DNA of 8,661 nucleotides from Prevotella sp. (lineage in GTDB: Bacteria > Bacteroidota > Bacteroidia > Bacteroidales > Bacteroidaceae): assembly GCA_017430675.1 (NCBI GenBank), contig JAFRMM010000087.1, forward strand, positions 1 to 8,661. The letters run 5' to 3'. The notes beneath the pieces were generated by a model, which did no database searches, had not been told where the DNA came from, and was given only the letters and a program-made list of their open reading frames with translations. Both the position numbers and the translations under genes were made by a program. Below, in pieces: positions 3,901-8,363 of the stretch (positions are counted from its first letter, which is position 1; every line of letters starts with the position of its first letter).

Positions 3901-4223
3901 ACACCATCTACGCTACTGGTGGTACGGCCAAGTTCTTCAACGACAACGGTGTGAAGGCTGTGGCTGTCGCATGGCCCGACGAGGATGGCGACAACAACGT
4001 GATGGATCTCATCTCGCAGCATAAGGTGGGCTTGGTGATCAACGTGCCAAAGAACCACACCAGCCGTGAGTTGACCAACGGTTATAAGATCCGTCGTAGT
4101 GCCATCGACCACAACATCCCTCTGATGACCAATGTCCGCTTGGCCAAGGCCTTCATCGAGGCCTTCACCGCCATGAGCCTCGACGACGTGAAGATCAAGT
4201 CCTGGCAGGAGTATAATAATTAG
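963..4223 (+). CDS. carB: Carbamoyl-phosphate synthase large subunit
   Basis: Makes carbamoyl phosphate from bicarbonate, ammonia (tunnelled from the CarA glutaminase subunit) and two ATP, feeding pyrimidine and arginine synthesis in the cytoplasm. The 1086 residues match the usual length (about 1070) and show the family's internal duplication. The first pre-ATP-grasp half starts VLVLGSGALKIGQAGEFDYSG (residues 8-28) and the second VVVLGSGAYRIGSSVEFDW (574-592). ATP-grasp metal/nucleotide residues are present in both halves: E294/N296/R298 (IIEINARLSRSS) and E853/N855/R857 (VIECNLRASRSF). The oligomerisation region lies between about 410 and 560. The C-terminal MGS-like allosteric domain (about 950-1075) has the ATGGTAKFF phosphate-site motif. 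The start at 963 lies at the conserved N-terminus, preceded by AT-rich DNA and no Shine-Dalgarno, as usual in Bacteroidota. carA is not adjacent on either side within the window. Many motifs match the eukaryotic CPS1/CAD type. Confidence 0.98.
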   Translation: MKKELKKVLVLGSGALKIGQAGEFDYSGSQALKALREEGIKSVLVNPNIATIQTSEGIADKVYFQPVNAHFVTEIIKKERPDGILLAFGGQTALNCGTELYLNGTLKEYGVEVLGTSVEAIMNTEDRDLFVKKLGEVDLKVPVSHAVESMEDALKAAHEIGFPIMIRSAYALGGLGSGICPDEKTFIELAESAFTFAPQILVEESLKGWKEIEFECIRDANDRCFTVASMENFDPLGIHTGESIVVAPTCSLKENQVKMLQEITIKCVKHLGIVGECNIQFAFNAETNDYRIIEINARLSRSSALASKATGYPLAFVAAKIALGYTLDQIGEMGTTSSAYVAPSLDYMICKIPRWDLTKFAGVSRLIGSSMKSVGEIMSIGRSFEEMMQKGLRMIGQGMHGFVGNDHTKFDNLDEELANPTDLRIFAIAQALEEGYTIERIEELTKIDVWFLERLKHIVDLKHELLKYNKLEELPDELLLEVKRCGFSDFQIARFVLKSKSTNMEKENLEVRKYRKQKGIVPSVKRIPTVASEHPELTNYLYFTYTHTPAFGDPTGEKYTAAHDINYYNHEKSVVVLGSGAYRIGSSVEFDWCSVNAINTARKLGYKSIMINYNPETVSTDYDMCDRLYFDELSLERVLDVIDLESPRGVIVSVGGQIPNNLAMKLHRQGVPVLGTSPVDIDRAENRDKFSAMLDKLGIDQPAWQALTSFDDVKAFVAKVGYPVLVRPSYVLSGAAMNVCYDEEELHRFLNMATEVSKEFPVVVSKFMTETKEIEFDAVADKGEVVEYAISEHVEYAGVHSGDATMVFPAQNIYFSTIRQIKKIAHKIAAELNISGPFNIQFLAKNREVKVIECNLRASRSFPFVSKILKRNFIETATKIMLDAPYQRPDKSEFDIDRIGVKASQFSFARLQNADPVLGVDMSSTGEVGCLGDDMNEALLNSLIATGYSIPKDAVLISSGGAKGKVSLLEPAQQLARKGYTIYATGGTAKFFNDNGVKAVAVAWPDEDGDNNVMDLISQHKVGLVINVPKNHTSRELTNGYKIRRSAIDHNIPLMTNVRLAKAFIEAFTAMSLDDVKIKSWQEYNN

Positions 4224-4227
4224 TAAG

Positions 4228-4277
4228 CCTAGGAGAACCTAGGATGTCCTAGGATATCCTGGGAAAACCTAGAATAA
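4228..4277 (+). repeat. Five-unit 10-bp tandem array with CCTAGG cores
   Basis: The whole carB-to-yigZ gap is built of 10-bp units with CCT at 4228, 4238, 4248, 4258 and 4268. The cores are CCTAGG three times, then CCTGGG and CCTAGA, each followed by a 4-base spacer (AGAA, ATGT, ATAT, AAAA, ATAA). The core is its own reverse complement, so in RNA neighbouring units can pair into short hairpins with 4-nt loops; the A-to-G change in unit 4 still pairs through G-U. A 10-base period excludes coding and places the units about one helical turn apart in DNA. The array ends two bases before the yigZ ATG, so folding or protein binding could affect translation. No named element is recognised. Confidence 0.85.
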
Positions 4278-4866: not shown

Positions 4867-5688
4867 ATGTCTTTCCTCAACAGAAAATACCCGTTTCCAC
4901 AGAGCAGTCACTGGCTGAGAGACTGTGCCATCTACTGCGTCATCGTGTTCCTGATTCTCTACCTGTTGCAGCCATTCGGATTCAACATGTATCAGGGTAA
5001 CAAACTGTTGTTATCGCTGTTGTTTGGTGCTGTCACCTTTTGCTGCTGCCTGGCGTACGGATTCGCCGAACGGCCCCTCATTCAGCATGTCTCGCCTTGG
5101 CGAATCTGGCACGAGGCACTGTCTATATTAGCGTTGATCCTGTTTATCGGAATCTGCAACTTCTTCGTATGTGCGTGGGTATTCCAAATTCCTGTCACAC
5201 TCGCTTTCTTCCTGATGTTTCTCTACTGGACACTGATTATCGGTGTGATCGTGACGGTATGCTCAATCAGTCTGAGTTATTACCGCTATCTGCGCAACCA
5301 GTTGGAGACACTGCTCGATAAGACCACAGAGCAACAGACGGGCATCGTCATCACCATCCGCGATACCAACGTCAGGGGCAACGACCTGCAATTGCCCATC
5401 AACGACCTGCTGTATATCGAGGCACAAAAGAACAATGTGGCCGTAAACTATATGAAGGAGGACAAGATTGCCACCATGGAACTGCACTCAACACTCAGCG
5501 CCGTGCTTGACGACCTAAAGGAATATGAGAACATCTTCCAGTGCCATCGCTCATTTGTGGTGAACCTGAACAATATCATTTCTGCCCAAGGCAATTCGAA
5601 TGGCTACCAACTTAAACTCGGCAACTGCCGTTCGGTTGTGCCCGTATCCCGCTCTTACGTGCCGAAACTCAAGTCGTTTATCTCTTAG
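4867..5688 (+). CDS. Membrane-anchored LytTR-family transcriptional regulator
   Basis: A 273-residue one-component regulator: the N-terminal half sits in the cytoplasmic membrane and the C-terminal half binds DNA. Four hydrophobic segments are visible at about residues 20-39, 47-66, 84-106 and 110-136. A short coiled-coil-like linker (YRYLRNQLETLLDKTTEQQ) follows, then a LytTR domain at about 159-273 with the family signatures LLYIEAQKNNVAVNY (181-195), FQCHRSFVVNLNNI (224-237) and VPVSRSYVPKLKSFI near the end. There is no receiver domain or phospho-acceptor Asp, so it is not a classical response regulator; the membrane part may sense the signal itself or a partner protein (inference). The start is two bases after the yigZ stop. 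Its stop codon lies inside the first of four 20-bp-phased repeats upstream of the receptor gene, which makes that receptor the best candidate target. Confidence 0.93.
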   Translation: MSFLNRKYPFPQSSHWLRDCAIYCVIVFLILYLLQPFGFNMYQGNKLLLSLLFGAVTFCCCLAYGFAERPLIQHVSPWRIWHEALSILALILFIGICNFFVCAWVFQIPVTLAFFLMFLYWTLIIGVIVTVCSISLSYYRYLRNQLETLLDKTTEQQTGIVITIRDTNVRGNDLQLPINDLLYIEAQKNNVAVNYMKEDKIATMELHSTLSAVLDDLKEYENIFQCHRSFVVNLNNIISAQGNSNGYQLKLGNCRSVVPVSRSYVPKLKSFIS

Positions 5689-5760
5689 TCACTCATCCTT
5701 TTTCTTAGTCATTCGTCAACTGGCATAGTCTTATGTCAGCCGTTTTAGTTGTCTGTCACG
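5681..5760 (+). promoter_or_regulatory. Four direct repeats with 20-bp period; candidate LytTR operator array
   Basis: Cutting this stretch into four consecutive 20-base blocks lines up TAGT(C/T) at block positions 6-10 in all four (5686-5690, 5706-5710, 5726-5730, 5746-5750), and a second conserved patch at positions 14-18 reading CATCC, CGTCA, TGTCA, TGTCA. Blocks 1 and 2 also match over 14 of 17 bases from 5681 and 5701. The LytTR stop TAG (5686-5688) is part of repeat 1. The array ends five bases before the -33 TTTG of the receptor promoter. LytTR-family proteins such as AgrA are known to bind pairs of direct repeats spaced about two helical turns apart, so autogenous or neighbour-gene control by the adjacent LytTR protein is the natural reading. 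The repeat is directly visible; the binding is inference. Confidence 0.7.
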
Positions 5761-5764
5761 GGAA

Positions 5765-5796
5765 TTTGGAGGATATCATTTCTGTGTCTATCTTTG
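5765..5796 (+). promoter_or_regulatory. Bacteroidota-type promoter for the receptor operon
   Basis: TTTG at 5765-5768 and TATCTTTG at 5789-5796 match the primary sigma consensus of Bacteroides (-33 TTTG, -7 TAnnTTTG) with a 20-bp spacer, within the usual 19-21. The start ATG of the receptor is at 5801, only four bases past the -7 element. Transcription is therefore predicted to start at or within a few bases of the ATG, giving a leaderless or nearly leaderless mRNA. The repeat array lies directly upstream, in an activator-like position. Confidence 0.75.
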
Positions 5797-5800
5797 CAGC

Positions 5801-7852
5801 ATGAAACAACGACTGACACATATCATGCTGATGCTGCTCGTAGCCATAAGCGCTACCAGCCAGACCACCATTTCAGGTATCGTCACTGACGGACGCGAAC
5901 CGCTCGTAAGTGCCAATGTATATATAATAGGTACAATAGACGGATGTCTGACGGACTCGTTAGGCCACTTCTCTTTCCAGACCACCAAGACGGAGGAACT
6001 GACGCTCCGGGCGACGTTCATCGGCTACGAGGATCATACACAGGCCCTCACCCATACCTCCGGCCTCATCATCCGGATGCACGAGAAGGCGACGACCATC
6101 GACGAGGTGGTGGTCACTGCCAGCACCTACAGTTTCGGCAAGAGCGACAACTTCAAGACGATGGATGCCCTCGACGTGGTGATGGCCGGCAATTCGTGCG
6201 GCGACATCGTGGCCGCCCTGCAGACACTACCAGGCACACAGATGGTTGGCGAAAGTGGCAAACTCTATGTCCGAGGCGGTGAGAGCGATGAGTGCCAGAC
6301 GTTTGTCAACGGCATGCACGTGCTCGTCCCTTATACCACCAACACAGCCAACAACGCCTCTCGCGGACGGTTCTCACCCTTTCTCTTCAAGGGCATCAAC
6401 TTCTCGTTGGGTGGCTACGGCGGTGAATACGGACAGGCCCTTTCTTCCGTACTGCCCATGGAGACCACAGATGTCGCCACAGACGACAAGTGGGGTGTCA
6501 GTGCCTCACTCCTCGACTGGAACATCGGCGGTACGAAAGCCTACGACAGAAGCAGTCTGTCGTTCAACGCCAACTACACCAGTCTGGCCCTCTACAATGC
6601 CCTCTTCCCTGACCGCTACGACTGGACCCGTCCCTATCGCAGACTCTCTGGCGAGGCACAATACAAGACAGACCTTTCCGGAGCGAGTATCCTGAAGACC
6701 TACGTAGGCTACGACCTGACCTCCGTAGGTCAGCAGATTGACGATTGTAGCCTGTCGCTCGTCGAACACAATATCTACGCCAACACCACGCTCAAGACCA
6801 ATCTCGGAAGCGGCTACACGCTCTTCACGGGCATCGCCAACTCCTCAGTGGTGGAGAATATCCACGACGCAGAGGTGCCAGGCGACCATTACCATAACTT
6901 CCGCAACGAGGTCCATCTGAAGGCGGAAGTCAGGAAGGTCTTCTCGCCCGTCATCAAGATGTCGGCAGGAGCCGAGGACTACATCCGCCACAGCACCCTG
7001 ACCTACGAGAACAGCCATTACCGTCTCGACTACCATCTGCTGGCCGCCCACCTCGACGCACAGGTCAGGCTCCAGCCCCATCTGTTCCTCAACACGTCAG
7101 CCCGTCTGGAAAACGCCAGTTACGACGGCCTGTGGCTGCTGATGCCCCGAGCCACGCTGAGTTACGTGCCCAACAAGCACTTCCAACTCTCAGCCATGCT
7201 GGGCCGATACAGCCAGACCGCAGAGGATGAGTACATCGTCAGGAGCGGCAAGCGCCTCCCTCAGAGCACGGCCACCCACGCCATCCTCAGTCTGCAGTAC
7301 AGCACGGCCAAGACCCTGCTGCGCATCGAGCCCTATTACAAGAAGTACCACCATCTGCCACTACTGGCTGACGGCATCTGCACAGCCGACGGCTATGGCA
7401 CCAGCCAGGGCATCGACGTGTTCCTCGAGAACCACTCGCTCATCAGGAACCTCACGACCACCCTCTCCTACTCTTTCAATGACTCCGAGCGCCTCTACCT
7501 CGACTACACCAGTCCACGCACGCCTGACTACGCCTCGCGCCACAACGTCCGCCTGACGGCCAAATATGCCATCGGCAAGGTCATCATCGGTCTGGCAGAG
7601 TCGTATGCCAGCGGTCGCCACTACCCTCAGGGCACTACACCTTATTATAATAGTATAGATGCCAACATCACCTACCTGGCTCACCCCAAGGTGATCGTCT
7701 ATGCATCACTCAACAATATCTTCGGTCGTACCAATATCTTCGGCTACAAGGCTGATGGCTCAAACATCATCGGTAGCCGCGACCGTTTCTTCTATATCGG
7801 CATTTTTGTTTCACTTAAAAATAACAAAGCGTATGACATCTCAAATTTTTAA
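5801..7852 (+). CDS. TonB-dependent outer-membrane receptor with carboxypeptidase-regulatory-like domain
   Basis: A 683-residue outer-membrane receptor that would import or bind a ligand using TonB/ExbBD energy; the substrate cannot be told. Residues 1-20 form a signal peptide (MKQR n-region, hydrophobic MLMLLVAIS, cleavage near ATS/Q). Residues 22-95 are a CarboxypepD_reg-like beta domain (ISGIVTDGREPLVSANVYI, then FIGYEDHT). A TonB-box-like segment TIDEVVVTAS (99-108) is followed by the plug (about 115-225) with the signatures LPGTQMVGESGKLYVRGG and FVNGMHVLVPY. The remainder is rich in alternating aromatic strands typical of the 22-strand barrel, ending in FFYIGIFVSL. It is shorter than SusC proteins, and no SusD gene is adjacent, so a polysaccharide-utilisation locus is unlikely. 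ATG 5801 is preferred over Met9 or Met11 because only it keeps the Lys/Arg n-region. The gene has its own promoter and overlaps the next gene by 20 nt. Confidence 0.93.
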   Translation: MKQRLTHIMLMLLVAISATSQTTISGIVTDGREPLVSANVYIIGTIDGCLTDSLGHFSFQTTKTEELTLRATFIGYEDHTQALTHTSGLIIRMHEKATTIDEVVVTASTYSFGKSDNFKTMDALDVVMAGNSCGDIVAALQTLPGTQMVGESGKLYVRGGESDECQTFVNGMHVLVPYTTNTANNASRGRFSPFLFKGINFSLGGYGGEYGQALSSVLPMETTDVATDDKWGVSASLLDWNIGGTKAYDRSSLSFNANYTSLALYNALFPDRYDWTRPYRRLSGEAQYKTDLSGASILKTYVGYDLTSVGQQIDDCSLSLVEHNIYANTTLKTNLGSGYTLFTGIANSSVVENIHDAEVPGDHYHNFRNEVHLKAEVRKVFSPVIKMSAGAEDYIRHSTLTYENSHYRLDYHLLAAHLDAQVRLQPHLFLNTSARLENASYDGLWLLMPRATLSYVPNKHFQLSAMLGRYSQTAEDEYIVRSGKRLPQSTATHAILSLQYSTAKTLLRIEPYYKKYHHLPLLADGICTADGYGTSQGIDVFLENHSLIRNLTTTLSYSFNDSERLYLDYTSPRTPDYASRHNVRLTAKYAIGKVIIGLAESYASGRHYPQGTTPYYNSIDANITYLAHPKVIVYASLNNIFGRTNIFGYKADGSNIIGSRDRFFYIGIFVSLKNNKAYDISNF

Positions 7853-8363
7853 ATCGTGTGTGCTCGCCATCGCACTCTTCCTGATGGCTCCCGTTAGTAT
7901 CAACGCCCAGCAGATGCCCATGCAGGCACTCGTCGGCCAGTCACTCAGCAAACTCCAGCAGGATAAGCCAGAGACCATCCTCAACTGCATTGCCGAACTC
8001 AAACGCATTGAGACGATGTTCCCCGACAGCGTCCAGCCCAAGTACCAGATGGCCCTACAGAGCCTGAACTACGCCGTGATGAATCCCCATGCCCCACAGA
8101 CAGACAACCTGCTCAACGATGCCGCTCAGACCATCGACCAGATGGAGCAGATGGCTGGTGCCGACCTCTCTGACGTCTGTACCCTGCGCGGCTTCCTCTA
8201 CATGGTACGCATCGTACAGGACCCTGCCCAGAACGGCCAGCGTTATTACATCGACGTGATGAACAACTACGAGAAGGCCCTGAAACTCAATCCCGACAAT
8301 GCCCTCGCCCAACAACTGCAACAGAAATTCCGCGAAGGCATGCAAAGCGCCATGAGCAGATAG
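7833..8363 (+). CDS. Small exported TPR-like helical protein
   Basis: A 176-residue predicted periplasmic protein. The frame stays open further upstream (an ATG at 7701), but that part lies inside the receptor gene and reads as a shadow; ATG 7833 gives a clean signal peptide (MTSQIFKS, hydrophobic CVLAIALFLMAPVSI, cleavage after NA at residue 25). The mature part is Gln-rich and all-helical in appearance, with one recognisable TPR-like helix (YEKALKLNPDNALAQQ, residues 146-161) and weaker helix pairs at about 47-83 and 90-129. The segment RIVQDPAQNGQRYY (126-139) resembles a motif I recall from small exported Bacteroidota TPR-like proteins; I cannot name the family. The start overlaps the receptor 3' end by 20 nt, implying translational coupling, so it is likely a periplasmic partner of the receptor (inference). 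The gene ends at a strong terminator. Confidence 0.85.
   Translation: MTSQIFKSCVLAIALFLMAPVSINAQQMPMQALVGQSLSKLQQDKPETILNCIAELKRIETMFPDSVQPKYQMALQSLNYAVMNPHAPQTDNLLNDAAQTIDQMEQMAGADLSDVCTLRGFLYMVRIVQDPAQNGQRYYIDVMNNYEKALKLNPDNALAQQLQQKFREGMQSAMSR

Follow-up and report, generated by a model that had tools for sequence, protein, structure and literature searches.

Four 12-bp boxes of the TAGTCATTCGTC / TAGTYRTCTGTC type, repeated at a pitch of exactly 20 bp, occupy positions 5686–5757 of the window (the whole 8,661-nucleotide stretch of Prevotella DNA that was analysed). Judged from sequence comparison, they very probably serve as the operator for the LytTR protein whose gene lies directly upstream, which would control the neighbouring gene. 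The window carries, in this order, a gene that we take from its sequence to be carB, a UPF0029 gene, the LytTR gene, the gap, a TonB-receptor-like gene and a small TPR-like gene; the nearest relatives of the LytTR protein are 88% identical to it and are found in Prevotella records. The features of the locus are:

4867–5688, forward strand: LytTR regulator gene, 273 amino acids, membrane-anchored, the N-terminal half being hydrophobic (Pfam, hydropathy, AlphaFold model).
5686–5697, forward strand: box 1, TAGTCACTCATC, which contains the TAG stop codon of the LytTR gene (repeat score, PWM, ortholog alignment).
5706–5717, forward strand: box 2, TAGTCATTCGTC, identical to the ortholog consensus of boxes 1–2 (repeat score, PWM, ortholog alignment).
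5726–5737, forward strand: box 3, TAGTCTTATGTC (repeat score, PWM, ortholog alignment).
5746–5757, forward strand: box 4, TAGTTGTCTGTC, which ends 7 bp before TTTG (repeat score, PWM, ortholog alignment).
5765–5768, forward strand: TTTG, probable −33 promoter element, whose register is kept in 37 of the 38 aligned sequences.
5789–5796, forward strand: TATCTTTG, probable −7 promoter element (TAnnTTTG), whose register is kept in all 38 aligned sequences.
5801–7852, forward strand: receptor gene, the putative target, encoding a CarboxypepD_reg + TonB-receptor-plug-like outer-membrane protein of 683 amino acids (Pfam).
7833–8363, forward strand: gene of a TPR-like secreted protein, probably the second one in the operon of the target, start codon not settled (ORF list, weak TPR match).

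The first-pass annotation of this DNA described four 20-bp blocks at 5681–5760, and the description holds. Compared with itself at a shift of 20 nt, this region matches at 38 of 60 positions (63%), and the remaining lags from 5 to 44 give 15–39%, with the exceptions of lags 16 (42%), 40 (50%) and 43 (49%). The top four-copy score in 5681–5800 is 31, a value that was reached by none of 200 dinucleotide shuffles (shuffle maximum 28). The array was also said to begin in the stop codon of the LytTR gene, and the TAG at 5686–5688 indeed lies inside box 1. The type of LytTR operator in which direct repeats lie about two helical turns apart has at least two repeats of about 9–12 bp at a pitch of 20–22 bp; the window has four boxes at 20 bp. 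The only place in the whole window that outscores the array in the four-copy score is a tandem repeat at 4218–4275, between the carB-like and UPF0029 genes. It consists of about five copies of a 10-bp unit, CCTAGGAnnn.

The array is conserved in orthologs. The ortholog set comprises 44 loci that encode relatives of the LytTR protein and come from a scan of species genomes. A chain of four boxes, scored with a PWM trained on 24 of these loci, is present in 38 of the 44, and in 14 of the 20 that were left out of the training. The boxes in these chains follow each other in steps of 20 bp, save for one 21-bp step in L037. Three loci (L020, L024 and L044) have no array at the end of the LytTR gene, L034 stops at the contig end, and L035 and L042 carry a partial array. 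All of these, as well as L037 with its 21-bp step, were omitted from the register alignment, which consists of the window and 37 of the 44 loci, i.e. 38 sequences, 37 of them distinct. The mean column entropy in this alignment is 0.31 bits in the boxes versus 1.02 bits in the spacers, a difference that none of 20,000 permutations equalled; among the 12-column frames, that of the boxes has the lowest entropy. At most one mismatch to TAGYYNTYYGTC is found in 34 of the 38 sequences for box 1, in all 38 for box 2, and in 37 each for boxes 3 and 4. An alignment of the orthologous gaps had been proposed earlier as a check of the array: the box columns are kept, the spacers drift and the 20-bp period is retained. 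The ortholog consensus is TAGTCATTCGTC for both box 1 and box 2, TAGTT-TCTGTC for box 3 and TAGTCGTCTGTC for box 4, and this difference between boxes 1–2 and boxes 3–4 hints at two unlike pairs.

Similar arrays accompany LytTR genes that are far more distant. The diverged set contains 69 loci that are less than 50% identical to the respective search query; the close clade is omitted, and the tests leave out the close relatives L061–L067 as well as L087. Some of the loci are mutually related (e.g. L081 with L082, L136 with L137, and the five next to a nitronate-monooxygenase-like gene), i.e. the 69 are not all independent. Self-match over 110 nt, counted from the stop codon, has a z of 5.2 at lag 20 and 4.6 at lag 21 and is also high at lag 40; in the upstream, in-gene and +300 control regions of the same loci, z is only −0.8 to 1.5. 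Held-out chains of three boxes (two-fold, trained on one half of the loci and tested on the other) are found at p ≤ 0.05 in 31 of the 69 loci, 23 of them at p ≤ 0.01, and in 4 of 136 controls. The seed of the held-out motif, TTYRTC, was picked after inspecting the same loci, which makes this test not fully blind, and the lag self-match needs no motif. The other 38 loci have no array at p ≤ 0.05 by the held-out motif chains. The motif learned from the diverged loci with this seed reads GCCnTTCGTCC or GCCnTTCATCC.

The position of the boxes relative to the promoter is also alike. Distances could be tested in 30 and 27 of the 69 loci, the rest being without a TA..TTTG far enough after the stop codon. 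In the 27 loci where TA..TTTG lies at least 45 nt past the stop, the peaks of the box score lie at −41, −61 and −81 from the −7 element; a box is found at −41 (±1) in 15 of the 27 vs 2.4 expected, and none of 2000 random shifts reached the peak. Box 4 of the window is likewise at −41 from its −7 element, and the peaks match the geometry of the window. Ten downstream neighbours were tested by Pfam: they include DsbD_2, DUF2141, choloylglycine hydrolase-like, nitronate monooxygenase-like, acyltransferase 3, TonB plug and radical SAM proteins, and three of the ten have no Pfam match. Common to the diverged loci are a LytTR gene and an array, and the neighbouring genes differ. The order LytTR gene, array, nitronate-monooxygenase-like gene is seen in L104, L108, L109, L110 and L123 (one neighbour named by Pfam, the others by eye). 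The second membrane LytTR gene of P. ruminicola (L107, G001:C38) has a two-box array of a different flavour with TTTGG, and the gene behind this array is choloylglycine-hydrolase-like.

The first-pass annotation had suggested searching genomes for the 20-bp-spaced motif, and this was done in three relatives: outside the array, two-box matches with at most three mismatches number 3 in P. ruminicola KHT3, 2 in Prevotella sp. ne3005 and 4 in P. koreensis, against 2, 5 and 2, respectively, for a reversed-pattern control. Since the off-array matches are at the level of the control, the array is local. A regulon of many strict arrays was rejected, because the strict two-box TAGYY pattern matched only 3 of 295 genomes of the order, namely P. 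ruminicola itself and two genomes that have no LytTR gene in the flanks (open reading frames read over at most about 1.5 kb per side). One of these two other sites lies by sugar-nucleotide genes, and the other is a longer tandem repeat by an IS21-type gene. Among 198 genomes from the phylum, 67 contain matches to a generic two-box pattern. Among 30 places fetched for this pattern, a LytTR gene is in the flanks of 3 and stands directly before the match in 2 (L155 and L158); many of the remaining matches are located within open reading frames or in simple repeats, and the full promoter spacing is found in 1 of 33 matches at the fetched places (L149). With a nearby LytTR gene at 3 of 30 places, the generic pattern alone is not diagnostic as a finder of LytTR targets, which are identified by position and pitch and not by motif alone. 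In both L155 and L158, the LytTR gene and the array are followed by a serine beta-lactamase-family-like gene (named by eye). Two sites in P. ruminicola (both G001:C32) are possible distant targets of a LytTR protein: L149, a two-box site that has TTTG/TAnnTTTG at the spacing of the window and lacks a LytTR gene in the fetched 3 kb, and L179, a two-box site before a CarboxypepD_reg-like gene (named by eye).

The regulator itself combines a LytTR domain with a membrane part. LytTR is the only Pfam family that it matches (residues 175–272, E 2.5e-16), and hydropathy gives segments at residues 21–39, 47–65 and 87–105, the last counted as two (four in total). The AlphaFold model (mean pLDDT 82, pTM 0.55, 20 sequences in the alignment) consists of long N-terminal helices (residues 16–151) and a C-terminal beta domain, and the best PDB matches of the C-terminal part are LytTR domains (3d6w, ComE and AgrA bound to DNA). 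Residues 35–37 of the first hydrophobic helix, Q-P-F, are nearly invariant in the 20 aligned sequences. The protein has the makeup of a membrane-bound one-component LytTR regulator, i.e. a LytTR domain fused to membrane segments with no receiver domain. There is no separate membrane-inhibitor gene of the LytTR regulatory system (LRS) type beside the LytTR gene, its neighbours being the UPF0029 and TonB-receptor-like genes; hydrophobic part and LytTR domain are joined in one protein. At least three hydrophobic segments are present in 68 of the 69 diverged LytTR proteins. The number of segments was rejected as a predictor of the array, with at least three in 30 of 31 array-bearing and 38 of 38 array-less loci; the one array-bearing locus with fewer, L102, has an internal stop.

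On the receptor side, TTTG and TAnnTTTG span positions 5765–5796 upstream of the receptor gene and are presumably the Bacteroidetes −33 and −7 elements; they are absent from the list of a simple sigma-70 promoter scan of the window. The distance from the boxes to the promoter is fixed in 37 of the 38 aligned sequences, the −7 element reads TTTA instead of TTTG in one of the 38, and an ATG follows this element after 4 nt in 35 of them (position 5801 in the window). If TTTG and TAnnTTTG are indeed these elements, the receptor transcript probably has little or no leader. The product of the receptor gene matches PF13715 with an E value of 4.1e-15 and Plug with 0.0014, below the Plug cut-off.

These features suggest how the array might work. 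Each 12-bp box would be occupied by one LytTR domain, and the 20-bp pitch, about two helical turns, would align the domains on one face of the DNA; boxes 1–2 and 3–4, with their slightly different sequences, would probably be filled by two dimers. The N-terminal helices would hold the regulator in the cytoplasmic membrane and probably sense a signal. The active regulator would occupy all four boxes, and its copy at box 4 would contact RNA polymerase, with the outcome that the receptor gene, and perhaps the small downstream gene, is activated. The regulator is probably an activator, because box 4 stops a short way upstream of the −33 element, and because binding upstream of −35 with an activating effect is stated for most LytTR regulators (PMC11347149). 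Binding of the LytTR protein to the same boxes could instead repress the receptor promoter, which we regard as distinctly less likely. The model for this is CoxC of Afipia carboxidovorans, a membrane-bound LytTR repressor with three direct repeats (PMC11347149), and the boxes in the window reach within 7 bp of the −33 element. However, the CoxC repeats overlap the −35 box (PMC11347149), but here no conserved box lies over the promoter. The first-pass annotation had placed a partial fifth block there and read it as a hint of possible repression besides activation. This part of it did not survive: TATCA is found near that spot in only 12 of the 38 aligned sequences, no PWM box extends the chain of the window, and the fifth block was rejected as a repression site.

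It is rather improbable that the boxes are used by another DNA-binding protein and that the LytTR gene is an incidental neighbour. What speaks for it is that the array remains by the receptor rather than by the LytTR gene where the two are separated, which is the case in two genomes. In the genome of L024, about 8 kb separate the receptor from the LytTR gene, both apparently on one contig, and the receptor promoter there carries four boxes (L093). In that of L044, the receptor is outside the fetched LytTR locus, and its promoter likewise carries four boxes (L096). The L024 assembly contains a second LytTR gene with an array (L009), and in the L020 assembly a second LytTR gene stands directly before the array of its receptor (L095), so that a paralog or a mixed bin is possible in both. 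The two-box promoter L149 of P. ruminicola, described above, points the same way. The association of like pitch and promoter distance with diverged LytTR genes that have neighbours from different families argues against another protein, as does the presence in one genome of two LytTR genes that have arrays of different flavour. The array belongs to the receptor promoter, and its retention at the separated receptors counts for the LytTR operator as well, as does the intact array of L028 and L030, where DNA is inserted between it and the LytTR gene. In loci whose array begins elsewhere than at the stop codon, this codon is TAA in L020, L024, L028 and L030, TGA in L042, L064 and L065, and still TAG in L033, L043 and L044. 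Both L033 and L043 carry an insertion of similar sequence inside box 1, with a substitute first box downstream of the insertion.

A role in RNA, as the terminator of the LytTR transcript or the leader of the receptor mRNA, is very improbable. A terminator-like hairpin is predicted at 5720–5739, but all eight of its pairs are kept in just one of the 38 sequences (149 of 304 cells), Rfam gives no match up to E 1, and the boxes are upstream of the promoter; the hairpin was rejected both as a terminator and as a structured RNA. Slippage can produce repeats of this length, but a chance or decaying tandem duplication without function has a negligible probability given that 0 of 200 shuffles reached the score and 0 of 20,000 permutations the box-versus-spacer conservation. 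The LytTR operator, which the first-pass annotation had also favoured, is the reading that the conserved boxes, the kept period and the same pitch and promoter distance at diverged LytTR genes with unrelated neighbours support.

Membrane-anchored LytTR proteins of Bacteroidota may even represent a portable one-gene switch, in which an operator of two to four boxes comes right after the stop codon, at −41/−61/−81/−101 from the next −7 element. This generalisation is possible, if somewhat short of probable, and it includes that proximity of operator and regulator may be needed via transertion: the operator would be kept beside the regulator gene perhaps because a membrane-held protein reaches only DNA that is drawn to the membrane during its synthesis and insertion. 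If true, any gene placed behind the regulator falls under the control of a membrane sensor. The box motif with its fixed pitch and promoter distance offers a way to predict the gene controlled by each such regulator, and the array a simple reporter test of the way in which a protein held in the membrane locates and uses its DNA.

The window regulator fits the class of transmembrane transcription regulators that a survey finds enriched in Bacteroidota (PMC10269533). The main text of this survey describes no operator for the LytTR members, and the words “operator” and “binding site” are absent from it. A search of the open-access literature, with subscription journals mostly uncovered, gave no report of this array or of an operator for membrane-anchored LytTR members of Bacteroidota. 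LytTR operators with three repeats (CoxC and RcoM) and the membrane-bound CoxC are known already (PMC11347149). Similar to the window regulator, CoxC is a one-component LytTR regulator with an N-terminal membrane part and more than two direct repeats beside the promoter; unlike the four boxes at 20 bp upstream of the promoter element, the repeats of CoxC are three in number, 8 bp long, of a different sequence and located over the promoter element, and CoxC represses (PMC11347149). No MHYT domain is found in the window regulator by Pfam up to E 0.1, and it is therefore not an ortholog of CoxC. RcoM is a soluble protein. Its operator resembles the array in being a row of evenly spaced direct repeats for LytTR domains that precedes the promoter and, as is probable here, acts in activation, but the repeats are TTCNNGCA, with a spacing of 12–13 bp, and number three (PMC11347149).

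The AlgR site of Pseudomonas aeruginosa, CCGTTCGTC, has a core, YCNTTCGTC, that resembles box 2 and the motif of the diverged loci; in contrast to the window, the AlgR sites described have no regular direct-repeat layout, and AlgR is a response regulator (PMC4064291). Box 2 agrees with CCGTTCGTC at 7 of 9 positions and boxes 1, 3 and 4 at only 5 of 9, with 27 of the 8652 9-mers of the window reaching 7 of 9. AgrA and ComE, which are phosphorylated response regulators, share the LytTR fold with the window regulator, as seen in the structure matches. Their sites have nearly the same pitch, about 20–21 bp, made up of two 9-bp repeats with 10–13 bp between them (PMC11347149), but they form a pair instead of four boxes in a row and differ in sequence.
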